This document shows positions 3,557-36,513 of a stretch of DNA of 36,741 nt, in pieces. The stretch is taken from positions 1-36,741 of the forward strand of contig CANRPC010000014.1 in assembly GCA_947632435.1 (NCBI GenBank). Reading direction: 5' to 3'. The stretch's first letter is position 1, and every line of letters starts with the position of its first letter. A program made the translations under genes and the position numbers. Origin of the DNA: an uncultured Bacilli bacterium (GTDB lineage Bacteria > Bacillota_I > Bacilli_A > RFN20 > CAG-449). The notes beneath the pieces are model-generated. The model searched no databases. It was not told where the DNA came from and saw nothing but the letters and a program-made list of their open reading frames with translations.

Positions 3557-4372
3557 TTATTTATCCTGTGTAGTTAATTTGTGGAATATTTTCCAATAAT
3601 TTTCATAATTTATTTCTTCAGGACGTATATTTTCTTCTAAATTAATTTCTTCAAGTGCTTTTAAAATATTTTCTTTATAATATTCTTTACTTAAATTATT
3701 AATTAAAGTTTTTCTACGCATATTAAATGCTTTTTTTAAGAATTTATAAAACGCAATATTTTCTTCTACATCTTGGTTATAAAATGTTAAGGAACATACT
3801 AAAGAATCAACATTTGGTATTGGAAAAAATTCTTTTTTATTTACATAAAATTCTTTTTTTAAAACACCTATATGTTGAAACATAATTGATAAAGGTGAAT
3901 ATTCTTTTGTTTTTAATTTTGCAAATAACCTCTGTTCAACTTCTTTTTGAACCATAAAAACAAATTTATCTATTTTTTTTATTGTTAATATTTTTTCAAT
4001 TATCGAAGTTGTTAAACCATAAGGTAAATTAGAAATTACTTTATAATCATCTTGTTTTATATCTTGTTTTAAAAAATCTCCTGATATTAACGAAAAATTA
4101 TTAAAAAAAGAGAATGTTTCATTTAAATGTTTACACATTCTTGAATCAATTTCATAAGCAGTTAAAAAAACATTTTTAGAAATTACTATTTCACTTAAAG
4201 CACCTAATCCTGGCCCTATTTCTATAACCTTTTCATTATTTTTGCACTCTAAAAGATTAACAATTTTTTCTGCTATTTCTTCATTGATTAAAAAATTTTG
4301 AGAGTATTGTTTTTTAGGAAATAAATTTTTCTTTTCTAAAATTTTTAACACATATTCTTTACTTGCAATCAC
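3557..4372 (-). CDS. rsmA: 16S rRNA dimethyladenosine transferase RsmA (KsgA)
   Basis: SAM-dependent enzyme that dimethylates the two adjacent adenines near the 3' end of 16S rRNA (A1518/A1519 in E. coli numbering) late in 30S assembly. The substrate-entry segment YSQNFLI (23-29), the SAM motif VIEIGPGLGALS (49-60) and the catalytic motif NLPYG (115-119) are all present. The 271-residue length is typical. The start codon is GTG, 14 bases inside the end of rnmV, with GGAAG six bases upstream, so translation is probably coupled to rnmV. Confidence 0.96.
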   Translation of the reverse strand: MIASKEYVLKILEKKNLFPKKQYSQNFLINEEIAEKIVNLLECKNNEKVIEIGPGLGALSEIVISKNVFLTAYEIDSRMCKHLNETFSFFNNFSLISGDFLKQDIKQDDYKVISNLPYGLTTSIIEKILTIKKIDKFVFMVQKEVEQRLFAKLKTKEYSPLSIMFQHIGVLKKEFYVNKKEFFPIPNVDSLVCSLTFYNQDVEENIAFYKFLKKAFNMRRKTLINNLSKEYYKENILKALEEINLEENIRPEEINYENYWKIFHKLTTQDK

Positions 4373-27258: not shown

Positions 27259-28842
27259 ATGAAAGAAACATTTTATATAACAACACCTATTTATTATCCA
27301 AGTGCTAAATTACATATTGGACATGCTTATTGTACAACTGTCGCAGATACAATCGCTCGTTTCCATAGAATGATTGGTGATAATACATATTTTTTAACAG
27401 GAACAGATGAACATGGAGAAAAAATTCAAAAAAATGCGGAAGCTAAAGGAGTAACTCCTAAAGAATTCGTTGATGATATTGTTCTTGGTATTAAAGATTT
27501 ATGGAAATCATTAAAAATTAGCAACGATGATTACATCCGTACGACTGAAGAAAGACATGAAAAAGTTGTACAAGAAGTATTTTCAAGATTTTTAAAACAA
27601 GGAGATATTTATTTAAGTGAATATGAAGGTTGGTATTGTACTCCTTGTGAATCGTTTTGGACAGAATCTCAAGTTGGTGAAAATCATATTTGTCCTGATT
27701 GTAAACGACCTGTTCATAAAGCAAAAGAAGAAGCATATTTTTTCCGCATGTCTAAATATGTTGATAAATTATTAAAATTTTATGATGAACATCCTGATTT
27801 TGTTACGCCCGAAACAAGAAAAACAGAAATGATAAATAGTTTTATTAAACCAGGTCTAGAAGACTTATGTGTTTCTAGAACAACATTTACTTGGGGTGTA
27901 AAGGTTAAAGAAAACCCAAAGCACGTAGTTTATGTTTGGCTTGATGCATTATTAAATTACATTTCTGCATTAGGATATTTAAGTTCCGATACTTCAAAAT
28001 TTGATACATTTTGGGGGAAAGATGCCAAGATAGTGCATTTAGTCGGAAACGATATTTCTCGTTTTCATGTAATATATTGGCCAATTTTCTTAATGGCTCT
28101 TAATTTAAGAATGCCTGATAAAATATTTGTTCATGGACTTTTAATGATGAAAGATGAAAAAATGTCTAAATCAAAAGGTAATGTGGTTTCTCCAAATCCT
28201 TTAATTGAAAGATATGGACTAGATGCTGTTAGATATTATTTAGTAAGAGAAACTATTTTTGGAACAGATGGAAGTTTTACACCAGAGCAATTTGTTTCCC
28301 GAATAAATGTAGATTTAGTTAATGATTTTGGAAATTTATTAAATCGTACCGTTGCTATGATAATCAAATATTTTGGTGAAATTCCGCCTTATCAAAAGGA
28401 ATTAACTGATATTGATAAAGAATTAGAAATATGTGGAAAAAATACAATCATGCTTTATCAAAATTATATGCAAGATTTAAAAGTTACAGAAGCAATTATA
28501 GAAGTAATGAATTATGTTAAAAGAGCAAATAAATATATTGAAGAAACAAAGCCTTGGGAATTAGCACGTGATGAAAATAAAAAAACCGTTCTTGCTTCTT
28601 GCATGAATCATTTAGCTAATACTTTAAGACAAAGTGCGATTATGCTTTCACCAGTTTTATTAGAAACTCCTTCAAAATTGTATTCGCAACTAGGAATTGA
28701 AGAAAAATTACAAAAATGGGAAACTGTATCTGATTTTGAGTGTTTAGGTAATCAAAAAGTTGTAAAACAAGACCCATTATTTCCAAGACTAGATGCAAAT
28801 ATTGAAATTGAATATATTAAAAGTTTGATGGGAAATATTTAA
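27259..28842 (+). CDS. metG: Methionyl-tRNA synthetase
   Basis: Class I synthetase charging initiator and elongator tRNA-Met. Seen: the HIGH motif HIGH (19-22), a knuckle with CTPC and CPDC (about 125-150), KMSKS at about 300-304, and the helical anticodon domain. The ATG at 27259 is chosen (527 residues) because AGGAG lies five bases before it and ten upstream codons of open frame fall in the rpmE terminator. It lacks the C-terminal dimerisation/tRNA-binding domain of the roughly 660-residue Bacillus enzyme. In B. subtilis metS adjoins tatD; here it does not. Confidence 0.96.
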   Translation: MKETFYITTPIYYPSAKLHIGHAYCTTVADTIARFHRMIGDNTYFLTGTDEHGEKIQKNAEAKGVTPKEFVDDIVLGIKDLWKSLKISNDDYIRTTEERHEKVVQEVFSRFLKQGDIYLSEYEGWYCTPCESFWTESQVGENHICPDCKRPVHKAKEEAYFFRMSKYVDKLLKFYDEHPDFVTPETRKTEMINSFIKPGLEDLCVSRTTFTWGVKVKENPKHVVYVWLDALLNYISALGYLSSDTSKFDTFWGKDAKIVHLVGNDISRFHVIYWPIFLMALNLRMPDKIFVHGLLMMKDEKMSKSKGNVVSPNPLIERYGLDAVRYYLVRETIFGTDGSFTPEQFVSRINVDLVNDFGNLLNRTVAMIIKYFGEIPPYQKELTDIDKELEICGKNTIMLYQNYMQDLKVTEAIIEVMNYVKRANKYIEETKPWELARDENKKTVLASCMNHLANTLRQSAIMLSPVLLETPSKLYSQLGIEEKLQKWETVSDFECLGNQKVVKQDPLFPRLDANIEIEYIKSLMGNI

Positions 28843-28852
28843 TAATAAAAAA

Positions 28853-30211
28853 ATGAAAGAGAAGTTTAAAAAAGTACAATTTGAGGTTGAATGTATAGGT
28901 ATGTCAAATGATGGCAAAGGAATTTGCTATCATGAAAATATTCCTGGTTTTGTTGATGGTTTATTATTAAATGAAAAAGCTTTAGTGGAAACTACGTATC
29001 GAACAAAACAAGTATTTTACGCTAAAATTATAAAATTAATTAATAAAAGTGATAAAAGAGTAAATCCTATTTGCCCAGTTTCTTCTTCATGTGGAGGATG
29101 TCAGTTATTACATTTAGATTATCAAGAACAATTAAAATTTAAGCAAAATAGAGTTAAAGAATGCTTAAAAAAAATTGGCGATATTGAAATAGATGTGAAT
29201 GAAGTTATAGGCATGGATATACCATATTTTTATCGTAATAAAATACAAATGCCTTTAAAATTAGTAAAAGGACAAATTTGTTCAGGTTTTTATAAAGAAA
29301 AAAGTCATGATATAGTTCCTATAGAAATTTGTTATATTGAAAATAAAGATGCTGACCACATTTTATTAACAATAAAAAAATTAATGAAAAAGTATCGAAT
29401 TTTACCTTATGATGAAGATAAAAGAACAGGGGTAATTCGCCATATATTAATTAGAAATTCTTTAATGAATCAAAATAATATGGTTGTTATTGTAAGCAAT
29501 GTTGATTCATTTCCAGGAAGAAATGATTTTATAAAAGAATTAACAAAATTAGAGCCAAGTATTTCTACAATTGTTCAAAATACAAATAAAAGAGATACAA
29601 ATGTTATTTTAGGCGAAAAAGAAAAAATTTTATTTGGAAAAGGATATATTGAGGATAAATTATGTAATGTGCTATTCAAAATATCGGCAAAATCCTTTTT
29701 CCAAGTTAATCCTGTGCAAACAGAAAAATTATATAAATTAGCTATTGAAAAAGCAAATATCTCAAAAAATGATACAGTATTAGATGCCTATTGTGGAATT
29801 GGAACTATCGGACTTATTGCATCAACAAAAGCCAAACAAGTTATTGGTGTAGAAATAGAAAAATCCGCGGTTATAGATGCTTTAAACAATGCAAAGAACA
29901 ACAATATTAAAAATGCGTTATTTTATTGTGATGATGCAGGAGAATTTATTTTAAAACAATATCAAGAAGGAAAAATTTTTGATATTGTTATTATGGATCC
30001 TCCAAGAAAAGGATCAGATGAAAAATTTTTAAGCATTTTATTAAAAACTAAACCAAAGAAAATTATATATATATCATGTGATCCTGCAACATTAGCTAGA
30101 GATTTAAAAATATTAAAAAAGACGTATCAAATAAATTCTGTAACGCCAGTAGATATGTTTCCTAATACTATACATGTTGAAACAGTTGTTTGTTTGTCCA
30201 AACAAAAGTAA
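28853..30211 (+). CDS. rlmD: 23S rRNA (uracil-5-)-methyltransferase, RlmD/RlmCD type
   Basis: SAM-dependent enzyme making 5-methyluridine in 23S rRNA (U1939; Gram-positive RlmCD also modifies U747). Order: TRAM domain (about 5-65); an iron-sulphur cluster site CPVSSSCGGC (about 74-83) with a further Cys near 162; the SAM motif DAYCGIGTIGL; DPPRKGSDE; and the catalytic Cys in YISCDPATLARDL. The 452 residues are normal and the C-terminus (HVETVVCLSKQ) looks complete. The ribosome site is poor. A relic of a group II intron begins at the first base after the stop codon. Confidence 0.93.
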   Translation: MKEKFKKVQFEVECIGMSNDGKGICYHENIPGFVDGLLLNEKALVETTYRTKQVFYAKIIKLINKSDKRVNPICPVSSSCGGCQLLHLDYQEQLKFKQNRVKECLKKIGDIEIDVNEVIGMDIPYFYRNKIQMPLKLVKGQICSGFYKEKSHDIVPIEICYIENKDADHILLTIKKLMKKYRILPYDEDKRTGVIRHILIRNSLMNQNNMVVIVSNVDSFPGRNDFIKELTKLEPSISTIVQNTNKRDTNVILGEKEKILFGKGYIEDKLCNVLFKISAKSFFQVNPVQTEKLYKLAIEKANISKNDTVLDAYCGIGTIGLIASTKAKQVIGVEIEKSAVIDALNNAKNNNIKNALFYCDDAGEFILKQYQEGKIFDIVIMDPPRKGSDEKFLSILLKTKPKKIIYISCDPATLARDLKILKKTYQINSVTPVDMFPNTIHVETVVCLSKQK

Positions 30212-30478
30212 AGGTTAAGGCATAAAATAAGAGTTATTATCTTAAAGCAATGGAAAAAGCCATTAAGAATATATAAGAACCATGAATTAATAAACAAAAA
30301 GTTGAAATATAATTTTACTTGCGAAGAAATATTCAAAGTGGCTAACTCAAAACTTGGTTGGTATAAAAAATGTGGAATGAATGTAGTTAACTTTATTCTT
30401 TCTAATAAAGTTCTAGCCATAAGAAAAGGAGATAGACCAAGTTTAGTCAATCTCCTTGAATACTACTTATCTAAGTAG
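30212..30478 (+). pseudogene. C-terminal fragment of a group II intron reverse transcriptase/maturase
   Basis: An open frame of 88 codons with no start codon, in phase with rlmD and beginning straight after its stop. It reads RLRHKIRVIILKQWKKP, then NSKLGWYKKCGMN and VNLLEYYLSK before a TAG. This matches the last part of intron-encoded proteins (the WKQWKK region and the following helices after the maturase X domain). Reverse transcriptase motifs are absent, so it is a non-functional remainder. Confidence 0.8.
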
Positions 30479-30571
30479 TTTGTGATTAATGTAGACGTAA
30501 AGCCGTATAAAAGAAACGTACGTACGGTTCAATGAGAGGGGCAAAATTTATTAAATTTTCCTCTACCCTAT
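30212..30571 (+). mobile_element. 3' relic of a group II intron
   Basis: Only the 3' part of a group II intron is present: the tail of its maturase (30212-30478), then domain V and domain VI. Domain V is recognisable from AGCCGTA (30501-30507) pairing with TACGGTT (30523-30529), the catalytic AGC, a GAAA loop (30513-30516) and the CG bulge (30521-30522). Its upper stem is decayed. Domain VI ends in CCTCTACCCTAT near 30571, the expected kind of intron 3' end. The 5' domains and most of the reverse transcriptase are missing; the left breakpoint is at the rlmD stop and the right end is at the stop codon of the leftward dinD-like gene. Confidence 0.82.
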
Positions 30572-31410
30572 TAGTCTTTTTTTGGCTTTAATTTTTTACG
30601 CTGTTCGGATTCGAGCTGTTTGATACTCTTCTCGGGCGTAGGGAGTTCTTCGGGCATCGTACCGCCCGCGCGCTTTATTGCTTCTCTGACGATTGTTCCC
30701 ACTTCAAAGTGTGCGGCATTTGCTTTTTCGGGCGTGTCTGTCCCTTCACGGCGCATCTTAGCCTCGGTCTGCGTAATACGGAAGAGGTTCGCCGCGAGTT
30801 CCTCGCCACCCATGTGGTCGAGAATTTCTTCACCCTTGGAAAGCCCCTTATGCTCGGCAATGTCTCGGGCTGTCATTCCACCGTATAACCCGCGATAGCC
30901 CGCGTCTTGAAAGGTCGCGTATTCCTGATTCGTGATGATCCCCGCCTTGTGCGCCGCTTCGGCAAGGAGCATATTCTTCTGCTTGATGTCGCCGCGGATA
31001 AATAGTCGCTTTTCATCTTCGGAAAGCCTGTCGTAGAGTTCATCAAGTTCTTGTTGCCGCGTCTGAATAGCGAAATAGGTCTGCCCAAGTGCAATGACTT
31101 CTTTGCGTGGATCGCCGTTCATCACGATGAGATAACAGGCATACCGCGTGAGTTTGTAATCGATGATGAAAGATCGTTTACCTTTCCCCGAAATGATTGA
31201 CTTCCTGACCTCAGGAAAACAATCTTCCACGCTTTGCTGACTTATCTTGCAGGCAATCATCGCTGTCTTGACAACCTTATGGAAGTTCTCCCATTTGGCG
31301 TATTGCAAGACGGGTTGGAGTTCTCGTGCATACCAAAAATCCGCACCGTTTTCATCGGTGTGCTTAATGTCATCGAACAACTTTCTCTGCTGTGTACTTA
31401 ATTTGTCCAT
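30571..31410 (-). CDS. dinD: DinD-like DNA-damage-inducible protein
   Basis: A 279-residue protein closely resembling DinD: an N-terminal BRO-N-like region with IKHTDENGADFWYARELQPV and WENFHKVV (15-50), and the family stretch AAHKAGIITNQEYATFQDAGY. E. coli DinD is SOS-induced and inhibits RecA filaments; the role here is inferred. Base composition is strikingly GC-rich compared with all neighbours and codons such as CGC, GCG and GGC are frequent, so recent transfer is likely. I see no LexA-type site. The transcript appears leaderless. Its stop codon touches the group II intron relic. Confidence 0.88.
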   Translation of the reverse strand: MDKLSTQQRKLFDDIKHTDENGADFWYARELQPVLQYAKWENFHKVVKTAMIACKISQQSVEDCFPEVRKSIISGKGKRSFIIDYKLTRYACYLIVMNGDPRKEVIALGQTYFAIQTRQQELDELYDRLSEDEKRLFIRGDIKQKNMLLAEAAHKAGIITNQEYATFQDAGYRGLYGGMTARDIAEHKGLSKGEEILDHMGGEELAANLFRITQTEAKMRREGTDTPEKANAAHFEVGTIVREAIKRAGGTMPEELPTPEKSIKQLESEQRKKLKPKKD

Positions 31411-31416
31411 TAACTA

Positions 31417-31445
31417 ATTATACCACAATTCGAGAGCAAGTGCAA
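31417..31445 (-). promoter_or_regulatory. dinD promoter giving a leaderless mRNA
   Basis: Minus strand: -35 TTGCAC (31445 to 31440), 17-base spacer, extended -10 TGGTATAAT (hexamer 31422 to 31417). Only six bases separate the -10 from the ATG at 31410, so transcription should start at or within a base of the start codon. No Shine-Dalgarno exists. Confidence 0.75.
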
Positions 31446-31553
31446 AAGATACCGATATAAGGTTTGCGAAACATTAAATGACAAAGTAAATTCAGTTTAT
31501 ATAAGGCAAAATGACTTTTGACAATGAAAAGTCCGAAAAATAAATGATTTAAC

Positions 31554-31751
31554 TTATAGCAAAATAGGATTACATTCCACAACAAATCTGCGCAACTTAA
31601 AAATCAAATCATCAATTTCTTGTTTTTTTACTGGATAGGTCTCAGTAAACTACCGCATCATTTCATTGTGCACTTCAGGAGTAATATTTTTTTGGCTCAA
31701 CAAATTTTCGTAGCGTACATTCTTAATAATCCAAGTAAATTTAATTTTCAT
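31554..31751 (-). pseudogene. Small gene interrupted by one amber codon
   Basis: Starting at the ATG at 31751, 33 codons read MKIKFTWIIKNVRYENLLSQ and on to EVHNEMMR, then a single TAG, then 31 codons in the same frame (FTETYPVKKQEIDD...RRFVVECNPILL) before TAA. The composition on both sides of the TAG looks coding. I do not recognise the family. It lies 27 bases downstream of the DUF4143 ATPase in the same direction and may be its decayed operon partner. The remaining gap (31411-31553) shows only the dinD promoter. Confidence 0.5.
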
Positions 31752-31778
31752 AATCATCTTCACAAAGTAAAAACGAAC

Positions 31779-33035
31779 CTAAATATATTCAATAGGTAGC
31801 ACGACTAAATTATCAGAAAGATAGATTTTATTGTCGTAAAGGCAAACAATCGCCCCTGTGCCGCGCTTCTTGTCGATATCTTTATCAAGCACATCAAATG
31901 TAGATGCCATCGCTTTATTTGGAGAAGCACTCTTTTTTATCTCGATGGGATAGAGTATACCATTTTCTTCGATTATAAGATCAATTTCACTTTCCACATC
32001 GTATGTCTCACCATTTTTCTTTATTCGTTTTTTGTCTTTGCCGCGATAGTAGAATACATTGAACGTGTAGTCACTCCCCTCGTTGGAGAAGGACTTCAGA
32101 ATTTCGGAAATAACAAATGTCTCAAACATATTTCCCGCGACGGCACTTTCTGCAAGTGCCTCTGCGCTGTTCCATTTGGAAAGATAACATGCAAGACCAG
32201 TATCCCTAAAATAAAGTTTGGGTGTCTTGATTGCTCTTGTCAAATGGTTTGAATAGTATGGCTGTAAAATAAAGATAATCCCCATTCTCTCCAAGACGGA
32301 AATCCAATTCTTGATGGTTGCTTGCGTAACACCAACTTCTTCTGCAATTGATGCATAATTTAGCATCTGTGCCGTTCGTGCTGCAACAGCAGAAAGAAAT
32401 CGCGTAAAAGCAAGCGAATCCTTAATTTTAATTTCCTCTTTAATGTCTCGTTCCAAATAAGTTCTGACATAAAACGAATAGAAGTCTTGCCAATCTCTCG
32501 TTGTGATGTGCATTTCGGGATACATTCCGCGATGAATGATTTGCCAAAGGTCATTGTATGTTTTCAGTTGTTTCTCCCTTTCCAAAATATATTCTTTGGT
32601 TGGTACAAAATGGCGGTTGAAAGAAATGCCATTAAGTTCGCGGAGAGATAAATTCTGTAATTCGAGAATAGAAACTCTGCCTGCGAGCGACTCCTGCACT
32701 TTAAACATTAACTTTATCTGCTGCGAACTCGTCAGATAATAGTTTTCATACATATCGGACTTATCGCACTCAATCTTAATGTATGGAAATAGTTCTGATG
32801 CATATTGCACTTCATCGATAATAGAAGGTTTTGAAAGATTTTTCAAAAAAAGTTTCGGATCCTCGATGGCAGCATTCAACAAAAGTTTGTCATCGAAAGT
32901 AACGTACCTGACATTTGGGTACAAGGTTTTGAGTAAAGTCGATTTACCGATCTGTCTTGCTCCTGTCACGAGAATACATCTACTATTACTTGCTCTTTTC
33001 TTGAGAACTGACTCGATATTCCTTTTAATATACAT
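31779..33035 (-). CDS. AAA-family ATPase with C-terminal DUF4143
   Basis: A 418-residue member of the AAA_14/DUF4143 family, common in gut bacteria and of unknown function. Seen: Walker A TGARQIGKST (24-33), Walker B SIIDEVQYA (about 71-79), a central winged-helix stretch ASIAEEVGVTQATIKNWI (about 224-241), and a C-terminal nuclease-like fold with EIDLIIEE and YPIEIKKSASP, the pattern of acidic and Lys residues seen in PD-(D/E)xK enzymes. Base composition is intermediate between dinD and the core genes. AGAGG precedes the ATG. A small broken gene follows it. Confidence 0.85.
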   Translation of the reverse strand: MYIKRNIESVLKKRASNSRCILVTGARQIGKSTLLKTLYPNVRYVTFDDKLLLNAAIEDPKLFLKNLSKPSIIDEVQYASELFPYIKIECDKSDMYENYYLTSSQQIKLMFKVQESLAGRVSILELQNLSLRELNGISFNRHFVPTKEYILEREKQLKTYNDLWQIIHRGMYPEMHITTRDWQDFYSFYVRTYLERDIKEEIKIKDSLAFTRFLSAVAARTAQMLNYASIAEEVGVTQATIKNWISVLERMGIIFILQPYYSNHLTRAIKTPKLYFRDTGLACYLSKWNSAEALAESAVAGNMFETFVISEILKSFSNEGSDYTFNVFYYRGKDKKRIKKNGETYDVESEIDLIIEENGILYPIEIKKSASPNKAMASTFDVLDKDIDKKRGTGAIVCLYDNKIYLSDNLVVLPIEYI

Positions 33036-33054
33036 AATAACCTCTTGTGACTAA

Positions 33055-33083
33055 TCTATAATGCAACTATATTTTAGTCGCAA
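33055..33083 (-). promoter_or_regulatory. Promoter of the DUF4143 ATPase gene
   Basis: Minus strand: -35 TTGCGA (33083 to 33078) and -10 TATAGA (33060 to 33055), spacer 17; start of transcription about 13 bases before the ATG. Confidence 0.6.
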
Positions 33084-33116
33084 ATCTTGTTTTTTCAAGG
33101 GATTAATCGATGATGA

Positions 33117-33320
33117 AGTGATAAATGTATACTTTATCACTCAAAATCTTAAATATTATAATTTATTAGCATATTAATTTTTAAAGAAATTTGATAATTT
33201 ATAATTAATTTTTTATATAAAGTTTGTTTAGTATAATTGAAACAACAACAAATTTTTTCATTAAAAGAGTGTGGTCATATGACCGTAATTTCTTTGCTTG
33301 TTGAAATTCTTGAGTATAAT
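33117..33320 (+). promoter_or_regulatory. Divergent control region with two operator-like repeats
   Basis: AGTGATAAA (33117-33125) and TTTATCACT (33133-33141) form a perfect inverted repeat with a seven-base spacer. GGTCATATGACC (33273-33284) is a perfect 12-base palindrome. Two -10 hexamers TATAAT (33232-33237 and 33315-33320) read rightward, both with poor -35 boxes. The palindrome lies between them, so the helix-turn-helix protein encoded downstream could repress its own transcription here. Confidence 0.5.
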
Positions 33321-33347
33321 ATAAATTTTGTGGATGATTTTGCTTAG
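33279..33347 (+). CDS. Possible 22-residue upstream peptide
   Basis: ATG at 33279 (inside the palindrome) opens a frame reading MTVISLLVEILEYNINFVDD-FA, then TAG at 33345, 17 bases before the Panacea-domain gene. AGAG nine bases upstream is a weak ribosome site. It could be a leader peptide, the relic of a toxin gene, or chance. Confidence 0.2.
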   Translation: MTVISLLVEILEYNINFVDDFA

Positions 33348-33364
33348 AAAAGGAGGCAGCATAG

Positions 33365-34369
33365 ATGAAGAAGTATTGTGAAGTATGTGAAAAAGAAGTC
33401 GAGACTAAGGTGATTATTAAGAAAGAAAACTATGATGTTTGTGGCGAAAAAATCGAAGTTGATGCCAAGGTATTAGTTTGTGCTGAATGTGGAGAAGAAT
33501 TATATTGTGAGGAATATGATAATGCCACACTTATTAATGCATACAACGAATATCGTAGAAAGCATAAACTTTTGTTGCCAGAGGAAATTAAGAAAATTAG
33601 AGAACAGTATGGACTTAGTCAGAAAAAATTTGCTAAACTCTTGAATTGGGGAGATAAGACTATTTATAGATACGAGAATGGCTCTATCCAAGATAAAGTT
33701 CATAATAGTCTTCTTCTGTTTTTGCGTGAACCTAAAAATATGAGGATATATCTAACGGAGAACGAAATTGTCTTTGATGAAAGGCAAAAGGCAAAACTGC
33801 TTGATACTATTGATAAGCTTGAACAAAATACAGAATATCGAATTGGTTTACGTTTCTTTGATCAGTTTTTCTCAAGAGTTCCATGTGAAGAAAATGGTTT
33901 TAAGGGCTTTGATTATGATAAACTTTGTGCAATGATTTTGTTTTTTGCAAAAAAGAATACAGAATTACTGAAAACAAAACTTATGAAATTACTTAATTAC
34001 TCGGATATGATTTTTTATAAAGAAAATGGAATATCAATATCTGGTTTGAAATATGCACATATGACATTTGGACCAGCACCTGATCATTTTGATATAATTT
34101 TTGGAAAAATGGCCGCAGATCATATTGCACATATTGATGTGTTTTATGATGGAAACTATGAAAAGCATCAAGTGGTTCCAGAGTGCGATATTCCTGAAGG
34201 TGTGCTTTCTGATGTAGAGATAGAAGTGTTGAATCGTATATACGAAAAGTTTAAATCTTTTGGATCAGTAGAAATTTCTGATTACTCACATAATGAGAAA
34301 GGTTACAAAGAAACAAAGCTAGGAGAAATAATTTCCTATGCATACGCAATGGATATACAATTAGATTAA
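33365..34369 (+). CDS. Zinc-finger, XRE and Panacea (SocA-type) antitoxin-like protein
   Basis: A 334-residue three-domain protein. Residues 1-50 are a YgiT/MqsA-like zinc finger with Cys5, Cys8, Cys39 and Cys42. Residues about 72-122 are an XRE helix-turn-helix with YGLSQKKFAKLLNWGDKTIY. Residues about 165-325 are a Panacea (DUF4065, SocA) domain, seen from LLKTKLMKLLNYSDMIFYK and YAHMTFGPAPDHFD. Panacea proteins neutralise many unrelated small toxins encoded next to them. Here no toxin gene of suitable size adjoins on either side. GGAGG lies about ten bases before the ATG, and a strong terminator follows, so it is a single-gene unit. Confidence 0.85.
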   Translation: MKKYCEVCEKEVETKVIIKKENYDVCGEKIEVDAKVLVCAECGEELYCEEYDNATLINAYNEYRRKHKLLLPEEIKKIREQYGLSQKKFAKLLNWGDKTIYRYENGSIQDKVHNSLLLFLREPKNMRIYLTENEIVFDERQKAKLLDTIDKLEQNTEYRIGLRFFDQFFSRVPCEENGFKGFDYDKLCAMILFFAKKNTELLKTKLMKLLNYSDMIFYKENGISISGLKYAHMTFGPAPDHFDIIFGKMAADHIAHIDVFYDGNYEKHQVVPECDIPEGVLSDVEIEVLNRIYEKFKSFGSVEISDYSHNEKGYKETKLGEIISYAYAMDIQLD

Positions 34370-34392
34370 AGTTATTAATAATAAAAGTTGAG

Positions 34393-34425
34393 GCGGCTCT
34401 ATGATGAATTGAAAGCCGCTTTTTT
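34393..34425 (+). terminator. Terminator after the Panacea gene
   Basis: GCGGCT (34393-34398) pairs with AGCCGC (34414-34419) over a 15-base loop, followed by a T-run (34420-34425). Confidence 0.8.
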
Positions 34426-34501
34426 ATATAAAATTAAATGAGAAGTTTAGCATTAAAGGTATGGATATGATCTTTTATAAATGCATTGCTTAAAAGTGAT
34501 T

Positions 34502-34565
34502 TTTGCAAAAAATTTGCAAATTAACAAATTAATAAAATTGAAATATTTATTTATAGTAGTAAAAT
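34502..34565 (+). promoter_or_regulatory. Promoter of the ATPase-RloB pair with twin TTTGCAAA sites
   Basis: -35 TTGAAA (34538-34543) and -10 TAAAAT (34560-34565), spacer 16; the start falls just before the ribosome site AGGAG (34573-34577). Upstream, two copies of the palindrome TTTGCAAA (34502-34509 and 34513-34520) are 11 bases apart, one helical turn, a spacing typical of cooperative regulator binding. Confidence 0.5.
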
Positions 34566-34585
34566 AATGTATAGGAGAACAAATT

Positions 34586-35887
34586 ATGCTAGTTAATTTT
34601 AGATTCAAAAATTACAGATCATTTTATCAAGAAACAAATTTAAGTATGGAAGCAGTCAAAGATTCTGATTTTAAAGATATAAATACTTTTTCAATTAATG
34701 AAAAATTAATGCAAAAAGGGAATAATAATCTTCTTAAATCAGCGATGATATTTGGTGGTAATGCTTCGGGCAAAACCAATTTAATAAAAGCATTGGCTTA
34801 TATGAAGCGTGTAGTGTTATTTTCTTCATCACAAATTCCTGTAACTAAAGAAAATGAACCATTTGCTTTTTATATTGATTCTAATGAACAAGAAAGTTTA
34901 TATGAAATCGAAATAATTCAAAATAATATTTATTATAAATATGGTTTTACATTATGTAAAGGAAAGATAACTTCAGAATGGCTAGAGAAAAGGAAAGAAA
35001 GATTAAGTATTGTTTTTAAACGTAATAAAGATAATTTAGAAATAACTGGTTTAGATAAAAGAGCAGTTAATATAATTAATCTTTCTGATAATATTTTGTT
35101 TCTTTCTTTTGGAAATAGTTTGAAACTTGAAATAACTCCCTCGCTTAACGATGTTATGATGTGGTTTCATAATTTGCTTATTGTATTTGAAAATGATGTA
35201 AATAGTTTAGATATTTATTCAATGGAGCATGGTAAATATCAAGATATGGCTTTAAAAATTTTACAACTCGCGGATATTGGTATAAAAAATATTCAAGTTC
35301 AAAAGGACAAAATCACAAACGTGACAAATATAGAAGATGTATTAAAATTTAATACTCAAATTCAAATTCAACCTAAAGCTAATAGAGGCCAAATAAAACA
35401 AGAGAAAAAAGATTTATACAATATTGATATGAAAACAGATTTTGAGGTTTTTGATAATTTAAAAAAATCTATTGGAACAAAATCTATAATGCTATATAAA
35501 GATGAAGAATTTAATTCTGAAGGCACAATAAGACTTATTTCTTATCTTGGTTGGATATTAGCGGCCCTTGATAAGGGTAGGGTAATTTTTATAGATGAAA
35601 TAGATTCAAAATTGCATTTTCTTGTTACCGATTATCTTGTAAAACTTTTTAATTCTATAGATAAAAATCCTAATAATGCTCAACTTGTTTGTACCGCGCA
35701 TAATGTCATGCTTATGGATGAAGATTTACGTAGAGATCAAATCTATTTTACTAGTAAAGATTGTTATGGTGAAAGTTTTTTGGTTGCACTTTCAGATTAT
35801 AAAAATGTAAGAAAAACGGATTTGTTCAGTAAAAAATATTTAGCGGGTTTTTATTCTAAACTTCCAGATATGAATAAAGATAATTAA
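34586..35887 (+). CDS. AAA15-family ATPase of a RloAB/AbiL-like defence pair
   Basis: A 433-residue OLD/RecF-like ATPase. Seen: N-terminal FRFKNYRSF (5-13), Walker A GGNASGKTNLIKAL (57-70), a long alpha/beta insertion (about 80-310), Walker B VIFIDEIDSKLH (about 340-351) and the switch stretch CTAHNVMLMD (about 372-381). With the RloB-like gene eight bases downstream it matches the RloA-RloB or AbiLi-AbiLii arrangement, known or suspected to abort phage infection. AGGAG lies eight bases before the ATG. Base composition is like the host, so it may be an older resident. Confidence 0.85.
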   Translation: MLVNFRFKNYRSFYQETNLSMEAVKDSDFKDINTFSINEKLMQKGNNNLLKSAMIFGGNASGKTNLIKALAYMKRVVLFSSSQIPVTKENEPFAFYIDSNEQESLYEIEIIQNNIYYKYGFTLCKGKITSEWLEKRKERLSIVFKRNKDNLEITGLDKRAVNIINLSDNILFLSFGNSLKLEITPSLNDVMMWFHNLLIVFENDVNSLDIYSMEHGKYQDMALKILQLADIGIKNIQVQKDKITNVTNIEDVLKFNTQIQIQPKANRGQIKQEKKDLYNIDMKTDFEVFDNLKKSIGTKSIMLYKDEEFNSEGTIRLISYLGWILAALDKGRVIFIDEIDSKLHFLVTDYLVKLFNSIDKNPNNAQLVCTAHNVMLMDEDLRRDQIYFTSKDCYGESFLVALSDYKNVRKTDLFSKKYLAGFYSKLPDMNKDN

Positions 35888-35895
35888 GGTGAAAT

Positions 35896-36513
35896 ATGGC
35901 ACGTACAAGCAAAAAAATTAACGTATTAAATAAGTTTTATATAATTACAAATGGAAAAAGTAGTGAACAAAATTATTTTAATTTACTTAAATCCAAAAAA
36001 AGTATTTATGATGTCAAAGTAATTTTTCAAAATAATGATCCAGTTGGACTTGTCGAATATGCTGTTAATTTAAAGGATGCTAATCAAATATGGTTGGTTT
36101 TTGATATAGACTATACATATAAAGAAAATCGGCTTATTAAAGCTATAACAAAAGCAAAAAAATATGGAATTAAGTATGCGTTTTCAAATTTAGCATTCGA
36201 AGTTTGGCTTATTTCTCATTTTCAAAAATGTTATCAAGAGTTAGATATAAACGGACATAAAAAAATATTAGATAATTATTTGAATAAACAAAAAATAGGC
36301 CTTACTTATAGTAAAGCTAACATAGATATTTTAAAAAAATATTTTATCCCAAATTATCATAATGCTGTCATAAATGCTAAAATTGTTCACCAAGAATGGA
36401 TAAAGAAAAATAACAAAAAATATGGCAATAATGCAAATCAAAAAATATGGGAATGGAATTCTTGTACAACAATTTATAAATTAATCGAAGCAATGAAACT
36501 AAATAAATTATAA
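35896..36513 (+). CDS. RloB-like protein (putative effector of the defence pair)
   Basis: A 205-residue protein of the RloB type, thought to have a TOPRIM-like fold and act as the nuclease partner of the ATPase. Seen: FYIITNGKSSEQNYF (14-28), QIWLVFDIDYTYKEN (about 75-89) with the DxD pair, and FSNLAFEVWLISHF (about 109-122), the family's SNPxFExWxxxHF motif. In many members the first motif reads EGxxTE; here it is NGKSSE, so the first Glu is replaced by Asn. AGGTG precedes the ATG. Translation is probably coupled to the ATPase gene. Confidence 0.82.
   Translation: MARTSKKINVLNKFYIITNGKSSEQNYFNLLKSKKSIYDVKVIFQNNDPVGLVEYAVNLKDANQIWLVFDIDYTYKENRLIKAITKAKKYGIKYAFSNLAFEVWLISHFQKCYQELDINGHKKILDNYLNKQKIGLTYSKANIDILKKYFIPNYHNAVINAKIVHQEWIKKNNKKYGNNANQKIWEWNSCTTIYKLIEAMKLNKL

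Follow-up and report, generated by a model that had tools for sequence, protein, structure and literature searches.

Gene content and composition of the locus

The window, by which the whole analysed stretch of 36,741 nucleotides is meant, comprises the entire contig C14 of a 1.68 Mb genome that is given as 98.13% complete in 42 contigs, and it carries the dnaA-dnaN-recF-gyrB-gyrA region (gene names by reading). On its minus strand, an intact frame at 30571–31410 (stop codon included) encodes a DinD protein of 279 amino acids. In a profile search the product matches the DinD model NF008573 with 360.9 bits, above the equivalog cut-off of 242, and the match is full-length, spanning model positions 4–279 of 288. 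A Bro-N domain (PF02498) occupies residues 15–107 at the N terminus (33.5 bits; cut-off 25.6), and the gene is assigned to the PADLOC candidate family PDC-S13. A sequence search of the PDB with DinD returned designed helical repeats and a segment of an arginyl-tRNA synthetase, and no relative of known structure.

Composition was measured on 27 ORFs of the window, with codon log-odds calculated against the usage of the contig (~27% GC). dinD (GC 0.493, GC3 0.563, log-odds −0.986) stands apart from the 22 ORFs extending from AbiEi to rlmD, for which GC ranges from 0.209 to 0.322, GC3 from 0.063 to 0.170 and log-odds from +0.387 to +0.805. The initial annotation had contrasted dinD with all of its neighbours; this is true of these 22 ORFs but "all" is too strong, since the adjacent AAA_14/DUF4143 gene (31779–33035, minus strand) is shifted too, though less than dinD (GC 0.379, GC3 0.390, log-odds −0.392), and the ORF at 33365–34369 deviates slightly (+0.093). 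A scan of viral contigs for the AAA_14/DUF4143 gene as a fellow traveller of dinD confirmed no relative. Both contig ends carry defence-like genes: a regulator of the MqsA/SocA (Panacea) type followed by an AbiL-like pair (AAA_21 and RloB) at 33365–36513, and an AbiEi/AbiEii pair at 333–1788. Downstream of rlmD, the genes differ in most of six relatives (L130–L135, by ORF reading only), and this may be a site of gene turnover.

A promoter adjoining the start codon

The dinD start codon (31408–31410, minus strand) is preceded on the same strand by a −10 element, TATAAT (31417–31422), which agrees with the consensus at 6/6 positions, and by a −35 element, TTGCAC (31440–31445), which agrees at 4/6. 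The 17-nt spacer between them ends in TGG and thereby places a TG at 31424–31425, yielding a TG-extended −10. The gap between −10 and ATG is six bases long (31411–31416, minus strand) and holds an in-frame TAG at −6, so that the frame is closed upstream. The description in the initial annotation of a near-consensus promoter whose −10 ends six bases before the ATG is thus accurate. Bacterial transcription usually starts about 7 bases after the −10, and the expected +1 is therefore the A of the ATG itself (31410, minus strand), as predicted from the spacing. The longest Shine-Dalgarno-like match before this ATG is only 3 nt. Within the window, TATAAT-N6-ATG occurs three times, a number reached by 23 of 100 shuffles, and promoter-like sites between 30200 and 33400 are no commoner than expected by chance (8 observed versus 11.0 in shuffles). 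In AT-rich DNA such a motif is unremarkable by itself; it is conservation among relatives that lifts the promoter above chance.

Conservation among dinD relatives

For comparison, the best 80 of 155 confirmed genome loci and 19 viral loci were taken. Five of these 99 loci were dropped (L012, which is frameshifted, and L069 and L106–L108, which are short, broken or distant), and the first tree thus comprised 95 rows including the window. A −10 with at least 5/6 matches stands 5–8 bases before the ATG in 12 of the 95 rows, and in all 12 the gap is exactly six. All 12 fall in a single 26-row clade (SH-aLRT 96), and none of the 69 rows outside this clade has a near −10. Shine-Dalgarno-like stretches of at least 4 nt are found in 0/12 of the near-−10 rows versus 77/83 of the remaining rows. 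In a second tree, with bootstrap and 38 chosen rows, three of them from a later search, a 20-row dinD clade (support 100/98) contains 12 leaderless rows, the window included; L027, likewise leaderless, branches just outside. The near promoter is missing from 8 of the 20 clade rows, among them the row nearest to the window, L064, where dinD starts 5 nt behind mnmG. Loss of the promoter is easy to picture in such a position close behind another gene. The leaderless trait requires six changes on the second tree, at least four of them by supported branches.

Conservation by column was assessed in 13 intact members, for whose choice the −10 was the sole criterion. The −10 is kept in all 13, with one mismatch in two of them. 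TG is present in 13/13, TTG at −35 and T at −17 in 12/13 each, and T at −29 and T at −1 in 11/13 each. Mean pairwise identity, by comparison, amounts to 0.28 over −80 to −36 and 0.42 in the spacer. As the members were picked by their −10 only, TG, TTG and the base at −1 were not selected for. Transcription usually starts at a pyrimidine-purine step, and a T before the A of the ATG fits such a start. In the frameshifted locus L012 the gap is 8 rather than 6. After the pattern had been fixed, a search of 396 genomes from the order of one carrier found 27 that matched, and three new loci from this search were placed in the tree: L186 bears the exact promoter pattern, and L182 (same clade) and L184 (outside the clade) lack it. 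The pattern is also absent from L188/L208, L190 and L195 (~70% identity, left out of the tree), and L181 and L183 share the upstream sequences of L017 and L022. In a sample of 392 genomes from the window's phylum, 19 have a match, and none of the upstreams examined shows the pattern. Twenty-one clade loci with 137 kb of sequence contain TGNTATAATN6ATG nine times, always at dinD.

These data bear on two other ways of reading the start of the gene. The near −10 might not be a working promoter here, dinD being transcribed from further upstream with an ordinary leader, for example through the AAA gene, which lies 368 bases off on the same strand. The commonness of the motif in AT-rich DNA and the example of L064, where a clade dinD has lost the promoter behind another gene, speak for such an arrangement; it is nonetheless improbable, given that the exact gap, the TG and the −35 have been kept while the surroundings diverged, and that a leadered message would also lack a ribosome site, as the ATG is preceded by no Shine-Dalgarno-like run of 4 nt. 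Alternatively, the true start codon could lie further downstream, in which case the leader would be short and the N terminus misread. Codon 11 is TTG, an alignment of 56 rows has its first invariant column at F12, and codons 2–11 are less constrained than codons 12–20 (nonsynonymous in 271/436 versus 121/336 unlike codon pairs). Codons 2–11 nonetheless resemble coding sequence much more closely than does an in-frame reading of the upstream DNA (431/482 nonsynonymous), and 12/12 members compared begin with M-[NDE]-x-L, which makes a downstream start very unlikely. The leaderless transcript predicted in the initial annotation is the reading favoured by a six-base gap that the clade has kept in otherwise diverging upstream DNA.

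The same device at other genes

A near promoter special to dinD was considered and rejected, since many viral genes and other genes of the same genome have the device. In the genome of the window, TGNTATAATN6ATG occurs eight times, as compared with none for the reversed control, and three of the eight occurrences open frames of more than 250 amino acids: dinD and two others that by reading encode an IspH-like protein and a lipoprotein. The latter two are candidate leaderless genes (G000:C7:59741-59758 and G000:C8:64178-64195; L138, L139), in which TGNTATAAT precedes the ATG by six bases. On viral contigs, 76 of 121 occurrences of a fuller pattern open an ORF of at least 60 amino acids, among the matches listed. 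In many genes on these contigs (L225–L344) the ATG follows the same promoter at a distance of six bases, and small proteins starting with MDLKS recur among them. The occurrences in the own genome and on viral contigs together indicate that the device is real and not specific to dinD.

Promoters whose −10 adjoins the ORF are already known (PMC12340547, PMC5397173). The arrangement at dinD resembles the leaderless promoters described for Deinococcus-Thermus, in which only a few bases separate the −10 from the start codon and no ribosome site is present (PMC12340547). In D. radiodurans, −10-adjacent leaderless promoters are reported to serve about a third of the genes (PMC12340547), whereas here a single gene lineage with a conserved −35 is concerned. 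Leaderless transcripts are put at ~2–3% in Clostridia with mapped transcripts (PMC9045289); another clostridial study gives 4% for one class of starts, generally with a second start upstream (PMC5171806), and 15 potential leaderless genes are listed for C. difficile (PMC7438776). According to these accounts, the dinD lineage thus sits in relatives of bacteria with few leaderless starts (PMC5171806, PMC9045289, PMC7438776). Among the titles and abstract openings listed for DinD, leaderless mRNA and leaderless starts in Clostridia, most subscription journals lying outside this scope, none concerned a LexA-free leaderless dinD.

LexA and RecA

In E. coli, dinD is a LexA-controlled SOS gene. The genome of the window gave no match to the lexA model in a profile search; among 14 controls the model found 9 (6 above cut-off), and among 58 genomes (the own genome and relatives) 7 match and one passes. 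Close dinD copies are carried by 14 genomes, of which 12 match the model and 11 pass the cut-off; the two without a lexA match say nothing about LexA independence. Although most of these hosts thus have LexA, no convincing LexA box is present at the promoters of 14 dinD members. When GAACN4GTTC was searched for outside the core promoter, in ~300 nt of upstream sequence of the 14 members, the best hits in 13 of them reached 5–6/8; the best exception, a LexA-like site at −116 in L023, reaches 7/8, as do 55 of 500 shuffles, and was rejected. A matrix was also built from nine sites in lexA promoters, selected by eye at 8 of 12 scanned lexA loci. At the sites from which it was made it scores 13.3–18.5, a circular result there; over −100 to +30 of the 14 dinD members its highest score is 8.0 (L018), and as 54 of 300 shuffles reach the latter value, the candidate was dismissed. 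The box and matrix scans, together with the lack of a lexA match in the genome, agree with the statement in the initial annotation that no LexA-like site is visible, and they favour its corollary that induction by damage, if any, would work differently here.

A RecA gene is present in the genome. E. coli DinD is listed among the RecA regulators that act through the RecA filament (PMC4457935), and the title of the primary DinD paper in the reference list of that paper speaks of the inhibition of postsynaptic RecA filaments. The full-length model match is shared with E. coli DinD, and LexA control is a trait of the E. coli gene of which signs are absent here. By analogy, the DinD of the window probably modulates RecA, as E. 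coli DinD reportedly does.

Origin of the gene

The nearest dinD relatives found belong to Clostridia-type genomes and are partial copies with 93–98% protein identity. L189, a contig-end copy covering codons 184–279, is 92.8% identical in DNA over 293 bases (98% in protein), and L064, a contig-end copy covering codons 1–153, is 88.3% identical over 452 bases (93% in protein). According to the record titles, the clade consists mostly of Clostridia metagenome-assembled genomes, several of them from animal guts. dN/dS of the window's dinD is 0.041 versus L189 and 0.038 versus L064 (both partial copies), indicating purifying selection by which the protein is kept. If the relatives are taken as the older state, changes from G/C to A/T exceed the reverse (14 to 5 with L189, 35 to 19 with L064), a bias that foreign DNA should show once in an AT-rich genome.

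Among 147 relatives, the NF008573 cut-off is passed by the window copy only. A congener (G002) carries a broken dinD at another place, with stops and a central gap and with 83.5–85.8% DNA identity. The blastn match at 31066–31478 (83.5%) and the alignment place the upstream stretch common to both copies at 31411–31478 (minus strand), so that identity runs 68 nt upstream of the ATG. The broken copy implies that dinD reached the genus, stands at two places and decayed in one of them. A foreign origin, for which the initial annotation had suggested a search for the donor by phylogeny, is in keeping with the Clostridia-type nearest relatives and the broken congener copy elsewhere, the direction of transfer from Clostridia-type genomes being the likely one. 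On these sequence comparisons, dinD is best regarded as imported and kept.

A probable intron remnant at the dinD stop codon

At its 3′ end, dinD meets a feature absent from the initial annotation. Putative domains V and VI and the 3′ end of a 5′-truncated group II intron lie at 30498–30571 on the plus strand. The RF00029 match to domain V has 28 bits and an E value of 0.02, short of the gathering score (40). In L348, a related domain V reaches 47.5 bits, passes its gathering score and stands beside a D1–D4 match. Homology to an E. gallinarum plasmid (L224; 69% over ~250 bases) and to a viral contig (L349; 79% over 78 bases) ends in both cases at window position 30572, from which it follows that the 3′ end of the intron falls on the dinD stop codon. 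A defined 3′ end is shared with bacterial group II introns (RF00029, RF02001), as the putative domains V–VI would be, but only the 3′ part remains here: no match to D1–D4 ribozyme domains was obtained within 28000–34500. A frame of 78 amino acids beside domain V (30242–30475, plus strand) is a probable remnant of the intron-encoded protein by reading and position; it has no Pfam or NCBIfam match and shows 59% identity to an unannotated frame of the E. gallinarum plasmid. At 3582–3813, that plasmid (L224) bears a homologue of this intron-end remnant, the matching frame not being the annotated one. In a search for an intact parent, the genome of the window gave just one further match, with an E value of 0.22, and a protein-based viral scan confirmed none.

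In L189, the corresponding place is followed within ~10 bases by a hairpin that is strong (z −3.08) and has a T-rich tail, and hairpin-like stretches are seen by eye behind several further dinD copies of the clade. For certain group II introns, those of class IIC, the insertion site lies behind a terminator. By analogy, the hairpin of dinD may have served the intron as a target here, and the 5′ part of the intron would have been lost afterwards.

The intron end also bears on a misassembly or binning error that would have joined Clostridia DNA to the contig. Such an error might be suspected from the division of the genome into 42 contigs and from the lone passing copy among the 147 relatives. 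It is hardly credible, however, as the broken copy of G002 at another place retains 84–86% DNA identity that reaches 68 nt upstream of the ATG, and as the junction to rlmD is the intron end, a boundary seen in two further records (L224, L349).

Mobile setting

Three copies of leaderless dinD (L013, L018 and L029) are divergent from a gene for the anti-restriction protein ArdC; of wider stretches taken at three ArdC loci, two contain dinD, and the third (L346), without dinD, was left out. Two clade members without the promoter, L019 (1558–3980) and L021 (3989–6122), lie beside phage integrases, and in a streptococcal satellite phage (L174, 3971–6157) dinD is likewise found beside an integrase gene. 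DinD is often carried on mobile elements. In this it resembles PsiB and other SOS inhibitors of plasmid leading regions (PMC11541004), which are RecA-directed, as DinD is by report, and often reside on mobile elements. DinD is nevertheless a different protein from PsiB, "DinD" is absent from the main text of that paper (PMC11541004), and a place on such an element would be conjectural for the window copy. That the dinD lineage serves as a portable establishment gene of mobile elements, expressed at once on entry and restraining RecA as PsiB does in conjugation, is a speculative and rather unlikely extension of this analogy. If true, the leaderless, LexA-free promoter would free DinD expression in a new host from the need for a matching Shine-Dalgarno sequence or SOS signal.

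Proposed history and implications

Taken together, the sequence data are best explained, with a probability of roughly 0.8, by an intact dinD, acquired horizontally, of a lineage residing mainly in gut Clostridia, whose members often have a leaderless promoter, and bordered at its stop codon by a truncated intron. Expression would depend on a promoter of the sigma-A type, TTG-N17-TATAAT with TG, whose −10 lies six bases from the start codon. RNA polymerase would start at the A of the ATG, and ribosomes would begin on the 5′-terminal AUG, presumably by 70S-type initiation. The unit would consist of the core promoter and the gene, followed in some relatives by a terminator-like hairpin, and would need neither Shine-Dalgarno sequence nor LexA, for which reason expression is probably constitutive. 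A group II intron would have inserted at the dinD stop codon and later been reduced to its 3′ end.

This organization suggests a compact, portable mode of expression in which a mobile gene dispenses with the customary damage switch: a dinD lineage with differently built expression would have entered a bacterium in which LexA was not found. Since mapped leaderless starts in Clostridia are few, an example conserved within one lineage is useful, and it may serve as a natural experiment on the question whether genes gain portability between distant hosts from a leaderless promoter.
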